Positions 36,228-37,037 of a DNA stretch of 64,000 nt are shown piece by piece; positions within the stretch are counted from its first letter, which is position 1; each line of letters begins with the position of its first letter. Under the pieces are notes generated by a model, which saw nothing but the letters and a program-made list of their open reading frames with translations, was not told the origin of the DNA and ran no database searches. Made by a program: the position numbers and the translations under genes. This DNA is from Aestuariivita sp. (GTDB lineage: Bacteria; Pseudomonadota; Alphaproteobacteria; Rhodobacterales; Rhodobacteraceae), in NCBI GenBank assembly GCA_018401465.1, contig JAGYKE010000004.1:868001-932000 (forward strand), given 5' to 3'.

Positions 36228-36293
36228 GTAGGGTGGGTGAAACCCACCATCCCCACCAACCACCCGCGCCATGGTGGGTTTCACCCACCCTAC
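36228..36293. repeat. Perfect 23-bp inverted repeat of the GTAGGGTGGGTG family
   Basis: The left arm (36228-36250) begins GTAGGGTGGGTG and ends CCCACCAT; the right arm (36271-36293) is its exact reverse complement; the loop is 20 nt. Each arm is itself palindromic (GGTGGGT-GAA-ACCCACC). The same arm occurs at 11747-11793. It lies at the border between the low-GC DndB islet and the high-GC arfB region. Confidence 0.8.
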
Positions 36294-36305: not shown

Positions 36306-36379
36306 CCCTGAATCCGCCCCTGTAACCCCTTGATTTTCCGTGGCGGGCGGGCCGTCCCATCGTGGGACGCCCCTCAATC
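36306..36379 (-). repeat. GTCCCAT palindromic repeat, copy 2, abutting the arfB stop
   Basis: CGTCCCA-TCG-TGGGACG is flanked by GATTG at the arfB end and AATCCGCCCC at the other, matching 26323-26400 over about 75 bp. On the minus strand the boundary GAT TGA supplies the last codon and stop of arfB, where copy 1 has GAT TGG and lets tdh read on. Confidence 0.65.
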
Positions 36380-36790
36380 CTCCACCCGGCCCCGCGCTGC
36401 CTTCACCTCGCCCCGCACCTTCTTGGCCTTGATCCGCCGCTCGACCGATCCTTTCGTGGGCTTGGTCGGACGCCGCCGTTTCGGAACCACCGTCGCCGCC
36501 CGGATCAGCTCGGCCAGCCGGTCGCGCGCGATCTCGCGGTTGCGGGCCTGCGACCGGGTGTCGTCCACCTGAATGACGATCGCGCCCTCTTTCGTCCAGC
36601 GCCGCCCCGCCAGCCGTTCCAGCCGCCGTTTCACCGGATCGGGCAGGTTGGGGCTGCGCGCGGCCTCGAACCGCAGCTCGACCGCCGTCGACACCTTGTT
36701 GACGTTCTGCCCCCCGGGGCCGGAGGCGCGGATGAACTGCTCGGTCAGTTCCCAATCGGCGATGCTGATCTGATCCGTGATGCGCAGCAT
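36374..36790 (-). CDS. arfB: Peptidyl-tRNA hydrolase ArfB (ribosome rescue)
   Basis: A 138-residue release-factor-like protein that hydrolyses peptidyl-tRNA on stalled ribosomes. The catalytic GGQ is at residues 26-28 in IRASGPGGQNVNKVSTAVEL, and the C-terminal tail is rich in basic residues (PKRRRPTKPTKGSVERRIKA) that enter the empty mRNA channel. ATG 36790 (MLRITDQISI) matches homologues; an ATG 15 nt upstream at 36805 cannot be excluded. It is downstream of a terminator, so it must have its own promoter or depend on read-through. Confidence 0.92.
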   Translation of the reverse strand: MLRITDQISIADWELTEQFIRASGPGGQNVNKVSTAVELRFEAARSPNLPDPVKRRLERLAGRRWTKEGAIVIQVDDTRSQARNREIARDRLAELIRAATVVPKRRRPTKPTKGSVERRIKAKKVRGEVKAARGRVED

Positions 36791-36807
36791 TGGGTCCCCG
36801 GGCATGC

Positions 36808-36841
36808 AAAAAGGGCCGTCCCGAGTTCAGGACGGCCCTTT
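36808..36841 (-). terminator. Strong intrinsic terminator after the small-ORF/RNA element
   Basis: AAAGGGCCGTCC (36810-36821) and GGACGGCCCTTT (36830-36841) form a perfect 12-bp stem with an 8-nt loop; on the minus strand a TTTTT run follows. This fixes the direction of the preceding element as minus and separates it from arfB. Confidence 0.92.
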
Positions 36842-36990
36842 CGAAAGTAGCGGAGGTGGGTCGGTTAGACCACCTGGTCAATGCGGGGTTACTCCCGCCG
36901 AGGGCTGCCTCAGCAGGCGACCTCCCACACTGTTCCGACCTCGATCCCCAATCCCTTTCTAGACACTGAAGCACCTCCTTTCCTTGTTGA
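36842..36990 (-). ncRNA. Candidate structured small RNA (cloverleaf-like) ending at the 36808 terminator
   Basis: The segment 36852-36925 can close with GGAGGT/ACCTCC and encloses three hairpins: GGTC/GACC (36859-36871), GCGGG/CCCGC (36883-36898) and GAGG/CCTC (36900-36911). On the minus strand it runs from an ideal Shine-Dalgarno and an 18-codon ORF into the terminator, so the transcript is probably a short leader-plus-sRNA. It is not a canonical tRNA: there is an extra hairpin and no anticodon stem. No known family is recognised. Confidence 0.4.
36910..36966 (-). CDS. Possible 18-residue small protein with a perfect ribosome-binding site
   Basis: GTG 36966 starts MSRKGLGIEVGTVWEVAC followed by TGA. 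AAAGGAGGTG lies 5 nt upstream, the full complement of the 16S anti-Shine-Dalgarno, far better than those of most genes here. The stop lies in the base of the structured region, so translation could control folding. The protein is too short to classify; a signal peptide or known domain is absent. A leader-peptide role is possible. Confidence 0.45.
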   Translation of the reverse strand: MSRKGLGIEVGTVWEVAC

Positions 36991-37037
36991 ACTCACCCGA
37001 ATCGTCTCATGCTTTCGGCTGAATCCAAAGCGGAAAA

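Follow-up and report, generated by a model that had tools for sequence, protein, structure and literature searches.

Between a transporter gene and a ribosome-rescue-type gene of an Aestuariivita genome lies a short stretch of DNA with a very strong Shine-Dalgarno (SD) sequence, a tiny ORF and an extensive predicted fold. What is made here: a very small protein, a structured RNA, or a leader that controls the next gene? A sequence-only reading of the window, by which we mean the whole 64,000-nt stretch of DNA analysed, had offered either a highly translated tiny protein or a regulatory RNA that captures ribosomes. Our answer, held with moderate confidence, is a self-closing mini-mRNA of the dual-function type, encoded by a free-standing RNA gene of about 180 nt that belongs to an extended CC2171 family.

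Layout of the element

The apparent stand-alone RNA is encoded at 36989-36808 on the minus strand (Table 1). From 5′ to 3′ the element runs CAACAA-GG-AAAGGAGGTG-CTTCA-GTG, followed by the 18-codon ORF, the fold and the terminator; its leader is presumed to lie near the RNA 5′ end. The SD sequence, 5 nt from the GTG, and the 18-codon ORF were both found on the minus strand as described in the sequence-only reading. That reading had also expected a match to the 16S rRNA 3′ end, and against the genome's own 16S, which ends in GGATCACCTCCTTTCTAAGG and whose identity was confirmed with Rfam, the complement is indeed exact over 11 nt, extending to as many as 15 nt in most relatives. In the whole genome GAAAGGAGGTG occurs three times: in the 16S antisense, in the element and upstream of a frame that we take, from its protein sequence, to be aroQ-like. 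AAAGGAGGTG is invariant across the 42-sequence alignment, where for many rows it was part of the search pattern; as the searches were keyed to the 5′ motif, much of its conservation is circular.

The minimum free energy (MFE) of the fold is −92.9 kcal/mol, compared with −67.9 ± 4.5 kcal/mol for shuffled sequences (z −5.6; 0 of 200 as stable). In the MFE structure GGAGGTG of the SD pairs with CACCTCC, and this closing stem encloses three hairpins, just as had been proposed. The proposed cloverleaf holds as far as a multiloop is concerned; Rfam at curated gathering thresholds, on the other hand, found no tRNA, no riboswitch and no other family match in the element. The stop codon, which had been assigned to the base of the fold, lies instead inside the 5′ arm of the central hairpin. 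The terminator with its T5 is present, with arms measured here at 15 nt. Scanning the window for the promoter consensus gave no match; in many relatives CTTG(AC)-N17-TATA-like pairs are seen by eye just ahead of the CAACAA leader. The neighbours are the expected ones, a transporter upstream, presumably YhhQ/QueT-like, and downstream a gene that we take to be arfB; the true start of the latter may be at 36788.

Table 1. Features of the element and its surroundings, in window coordinates
Feature	Position	Strand	Remarks
Putative promoter region	37000..37030	(-)	weak; position relative to the promoters of relatives
-35-like CTTTGG; weak -10 region	37030-37025; ~37009-37000	(-)	
CAACAA leader	36984..36989	(-)	RF01867 match begins here; most relatives have the same leader
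Shine-Dalgarno GAAAGGAGGTG	36972..36982	(-)	11-nt perfect complement of the 16S rRNA 3′ tail
18-codon ORF MSRKGLGIEVGTVWEVAC	36910..36966	(-)	GTG 36966-36964, TGA 36912-36910
Central hairpin	36895..36916	(-)	CAGC loop 36907-36904; covariation in 41 sequences; helices 5-6
CACCTCC, closing-stem partner of the SD	36852..36858	(-)	pairs with GGAGGTG (36978-36972); 96.3% of cells paired
Intrinsic terminator	36808..36841	(-)	15-nt arms 36841-36827/36824-36810; T5 at 36812-36808; 9/9 counted pairs with both-side changes (helix 8)
Upstream neighbour, Vut_1 family transporter, PF02592	37038..37712	(-)	
Downstream neighbour, RF-1-domain protein, PF00472 (arfB-like)	36374..36805	(-)	
Perfect 23-nt inverted repeat GTAGGGTGGGTGAAACCCACCAT	36228-36293		20 nt between arms; between the DndB-domain and arfB-like genes
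Gene with DndB (DNA-sulfur modification-associated) domain, PF14072	34662-36116		

Relation to CC2171 and distribution

A permissive Rfam search aligned the full model of CC2171 (RF01867), positions 1-159, with the element at 35.8 bits (E 4e-6), which falls below the RF01867 gathering cut-off of 75 bits; five other loci, of rhizobial or caulobacterial type, score 79.7-91.5 bits with the same model. Of 21 genomes, the window's own included, 14 match the model, each at a single place; Caulobacter vibrioides is also matched, among 14 control genomes. Judged by these alignments, the element and the Caulobacter-type sRNA that Rfam lists as CC2171 belong to one family, of which the element is the Rhodobacterales form. 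Further sub-threshold Rfam matches, to sX14, RcsR1 and AS1726 (E 0.04 or worse), were discarded as weak.

By DNA similarity the element is present in 13 of 41 genomes, its own included, and since relatives carry it in this way it is not a chance occurrence. With one mismatch allowed, the pattern AAAGGAGGTGNTYCARTGTC is carried by 75 of the 385 alphaproteobacterial genomes searched, and the reversed control pattern matched none among the genomes listed; exact-match records named below phylum were all alphaproteobacterial among the 80 of 120 stretches listed. A sequence-only search model matched 132 of 387 genomes in the class, missing the window's own variant, and its weak tail at about 19-20 bits is probably 16S antisense, to go by the matched positions. 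This model recovered the element in 21 of the 24 further genomes from the window's own family and in 48 of 61 genomes of the family of genome G531, probably Rhizobiaceae. Within a sample of the phylum 26 of 150 genomes were matched, all 26 in Alphaproteobacteria, and none of about 109 genomes of other Pseudomonadota classes (class share judged from sort order). Homologues found in this way are spread through much of Alphaproteobacteria, at about one copy per genome. One genome (G036) has two copies, L083 and L084, with different ORFs. A plasmid-borne element was also considered and dropped, the plasmid search giving no match.

Constraint on frame, peptide and fold

After exclusion of 12 duplicate loci, we examined 211 loci for an ORF of 10-65 codons; three have no qualifying ORF (L055, L100, L214) and six repeats were merged, leaving 202 elements. 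Their starts are GTG (136), ATG (62) and TTG (4), and their stops TGA (106), TAA (50) and TAG (46). The terminator finder missed 8 of the 202, the window's copy included, so that the frame, closing-helix, accessibility and SD-pairing tests use at most 194; the codon 2-5 closing-helix tests use a non-redundant set of 183. Frame 0 has a stop ahead of the terminator in all 194, never earlier than codon 15 (which makes the ORFs at least 14 codons long), a result partly preselected by the 10-65 codon rule, though that rule removed only 3 loci. Frames +1 and +2 have no stop ahead of the terminator in 41 and 44 of 194, respectively, and often have one within the first few codons. Group labels used here (RHODO, RHIZ, EQP, BRADY, OTHER) denote groupings by peptide motif, not phylogeny. 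Rhodobacterales members were chosen by a loose peptide pattern with an ORF of up to 30 codons and no fixed length, and in their alignment (A1, with L003 kept and L161 left out) all 42 ORFs have 18 codons, with stops TGA 17, TAG 17 and TAA 8. A short ORF is therefore kept on a small stand-alone transcript, predicted from the terminator and the promoters of homologues; a short ORF apparently under selection on a small transcript is one of two features expected of a dual-function (coding) sRNA, the other being that the RNA would regulate in trans.

The peptide itself appears far less constrained. Over codons 2-17 pN/pS is 0.80 in frame compared with 0.73 and 0.76 in the wrong frames, and the rhizobial sets give 0.72-0.93. 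Start, frame and stop are kept, yet pN/pS resembles that of the wrong frames; the act of translation, rather than the peptide, thus seems to be selected and conserved. Codons 2-12 in Rhodobacterales give 0.56 in frame compared with 1.25 and 1.13 out of frame, so that some peptide constraint is possible there, and codons 13-18 are free to vary. In the same alignment TTG, GAG and ACA codons keep their third base, which indicates constraint at the nucleotide level. AGA, ATA, TTG and ACA codons, which are rare in GC-rich alphaproteobacteria, are seen in relatives' ORFs. The peptides look hydrophilic by eye, where a type I toxin mRNA would be expected to encode a hydrophobic membrane peptide opposed by an antisense RNA. 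Between clades they have little in common beyond MS; NCBIfam and Pfam searches with seven of them gave matches only below curated cut-offs, the 18-aa window peptide being too short to search. Six loci with the same 5′ block (L029, L094, L097, L143, L167 and L176; Azospirillum where named) have ORFs of 55-59 codons, whose products look like secreted proteins or lipoprotein precursors.

These data bear on the most serious rival, that of a plain small mRNA that acts through its short peptide, the strong SD serving only high output. The kept start, frame and stop and the low ratio in codons 2-12 speak for it, as do the 18-29 aa members in the G531 family and the highly translated SEP1 of Sinorhizobium meliloti described in the available part of PMC10117765. 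It leaves unexplained, however, that clade peptides share so little, that whole-ORF ratios resemble wrong frames and that codons 13-18 are free, and base pairing in part fixes the early codons. We therefore regard it as unlikely, and an ORF that is kept while its peptide hardly is speaks for an RNA gated by translation rather than for the gene of a small protein. Of the tiny protein first proposed, the translated ORF stands, with its fixed frame and varying start and stop codons, whereas amino-acid selection is at most slight; likewise, in the suggested comparison of peptide with structure among relatives, stems and frame are conserved and the peptide barely.

The structured RNA of the sequence-only reading is borne out by stems that covary in relatives. 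In Rhodobacterales the fold has 90.3% of cells paired, compared with 84.8% when shuffled and 41-56% when slid, and 24 pairs changed on both sides, compared with 13.0 in shuffles. The SD-closing helix (helix 1) is without double changes because the SD columns are invariant. For the stop-codon hairpin, covariation reaches 6.22 of 7 pairs, compared with 5.22 ± 0.12 (maximum 5.66; n = 41, one of 42 sequences being excluded for a shifted stop), so that changes in the stop codon tend to be matched on the partner strand.

Class-wide, codons 2-5 are complementary to the sequence immediately ahead of the terminator, with very different letters from case to case (CATTGTC/GACAATG, GTGAG/CTCAC, ATGAGATT/AATCTCAT, CATGAAT/ATTCATG, CGAGATC/GATCTCG). 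The helix with an element's own partner has −10.17 kcal/mol, compared with −6.60 ± 0.22 kcal/mol when partners are swapped (n = 183) and −8.50 ± 0.17 kcal/mol when they are swapped within groups. Its observed covariation was reached by 0 of 5000 shuffles in OTHER, 3 in EQP and 26 in RHIZ; no covariation of this helix was found within Rhodobacterales (2401 of 5000) or the Bradyrhizobium type (3927 of 5000). Rhodobacterales, on the other hand, have an SD-closing score of 20.1 compared with 14.5 when shuffled, a predicted mean unpaired value of 0.02 for the SD, and SD sequestration at p<0.05 in a fraction of 0.60 of loci, compared with 0.00-0.08 in other groups. Since covariation and enrichment split by clade, there are two closures rather than one conserved helix: the 3′ part is predicted to fold back on the initiation region, onto the SD in Rhodobacterales and onto codons 2-5 in other clades, where the pairing covaries between clades. 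Predicted structure borders on the initiation region, or overlaps it, in most groups. A further pairing considered in Rhodobacterales, between the loop of the start hairpin and the pre-terminator stretch, was dropped, within-clade covariation being absent. Directly before the SD-pairing strand, columns 163-166 of the Rhodobacterales alignment show a strongly conserved CTAAC, mostly unpaired in the model. At two loci of the G531 family, L311 and L314 (about 1511), one inserted A changes the SD; the changed SD has its complement in the sequence following the stop codon in L311 and, similarly but with a bulge, in L314. By this complementarity L311 is an independent case of SD closure.

Two other rivals turn on these strands. 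In the first, the extended SD would hold a 30S subunit on folded RNA without accommodation, thereby lowering or storing translation capacity. The very long SD would allow ribosome capture, structure at the initiation region fits, and extended SD helices on the 30S are documented in Staphylococcus aureus in the accessible text of PMC13009471; but a kept frame and stop would be needless for such a trap, and the Rhodobacterales SD is predicted to be paired, which makes it quite improbable in our estimate. In the second, an anti-SD-like 3′ strand would repress other mRNAs by base pairing, the ORF being incidental. CAYCTCC is present in Rhodobacterales members, and anti-SD sRNAs are known in Alphaproteobacteria according to excerpts of PMC3927594 and PMC12559287. 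The strand shows no such enrichment in other clades, however, and an incidental ORF would not give the observed contrast between frames; we give this reading little credence.

Proposed mode of action and known systems

The neighbours finally speak to the attenuator suggested earlier. Among Rhodobacterales-type loci with room, 39 of 40 have Vut_1 upstream, compared with 0 of 62 loci of the rhizobial type. A leader-peptide attenuator of arfB, which requires a conserved downstream gene, was rejected as highly improbable: arfB comes immediately after the element in the window and at 25 of 35 Rhodobacterales-type loci that have room, but at none of the 59 rhizobial-type, 22 EQP-type and 9 Bradyrhizobium-type loci, and naive ORF calling puts the next frame on the opposite strand in some Rhodobacterales. 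These counts, which show conserved neighbours in Rhodobacterales alone, together with the apparent own promoter and terminator, make the element most likely its own gene and not a leader. Locus L006 (2-956) has, beside the full arfB gene, additional matches to its C-terminal part.

For the self-closing mini-mRNA that we favour, the following course can be envisaged. First, a ribosome would load on the RNA 5′ end during transcription. Second, as the ORF codons form the 5′ strand of a long hairpin, translation would melt the fold. Third, if initiation failed, the RNA would close, hiding SD and start; by this geometry, translation and closure would be mutually exclusive. Finally, 30S availability would set which of the two exclusive states is adopted, and an output could follow from that state, through RNA stability, pairing of the 3′ strand with other RNAs, or the peptide. 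A broader version is tentative and, we think, doubtful: a class-wide switch that reads free 30S, single-copy and with one of the cell's longest SDs, in which translation of the tiny ORF, and not its peptide, is selected, the closing helix has re-evolved per clade and the output is regulatory. If it were true, ribosome supply would set the open or closed state of the RNA and thereby its regulatory output.

Rfam holds the family as an sRNA without stated function that lies above the cut-off only in part of the class, and our literature search on CC2171/RF01867 found no functional study of the RNA. CC2171 is listed in Rfam 15 and as one entry of a Mesorhizobium huakuii survey, so far as these sources were available; the accessible portions of PMC5082802, PMC2873474 and PMC11005374 make no mention of a CC2171-type RNA. 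As far as can be told from these searches, three points are new: the extension across the class, the conserved mini-ORF and closing helices that differ by clade. Read as an RNA with a conserved mini-ORF and an initiation site that closes on itself, the family is a candidate link between ribosome supply and RNA regulation in Rhodobacter relatives, Caulobacter, rhizobia and Azospirillum; it also cautions that a translated gene can sit behind an 'sRNA' label. In Caulobacter, two earlier ncRNAs were reported to be translated, without being named in the consulted part of PMC4117421.

Several known systems share features with the element, as far as the consulted parts of their descriptions go. Pos19 of Rhodobacter sphaeroides (PMC5036791) is likewise a small RNA with a translated ORF, in a related genus, but it is longer (219 nt, with a 150-nt ORF) and is an RpoE-dependent stress sRNA. 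In S. meliloti, rnTrpL/peTrpL (PMC10117765) is a short RNA with a translated ORF of 14 codons; it is a leaderless trp attenuator, whereas the element has a strong SD and no operon. The extended-SD sites of S. aureus (PMC13009471) also combine a long SD-aSD helix with small ORFs, in ordinary mRNAs and uORFs, though the excerpt describes no closing fold. SEP1 (23 aa, pI 4.18, Rhizobiaceae-conserved; PMC10117765), with the highest translation efficiency (TE) among non-annotated sORFs, resembles some of the G531-family members by description in size and acidity. CC2171 itself shares the 5′ block CAAC..GAAAGGAGGUGAU.CAGUGUCU, a terminator, about one copy per genome and alignment over the full length. 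It stands in Rfam as an sRNA, whereas the element has a conserved ORF, and the closing helix of the CC2171 type uses codons 2-5 where that of the window uses the SD.
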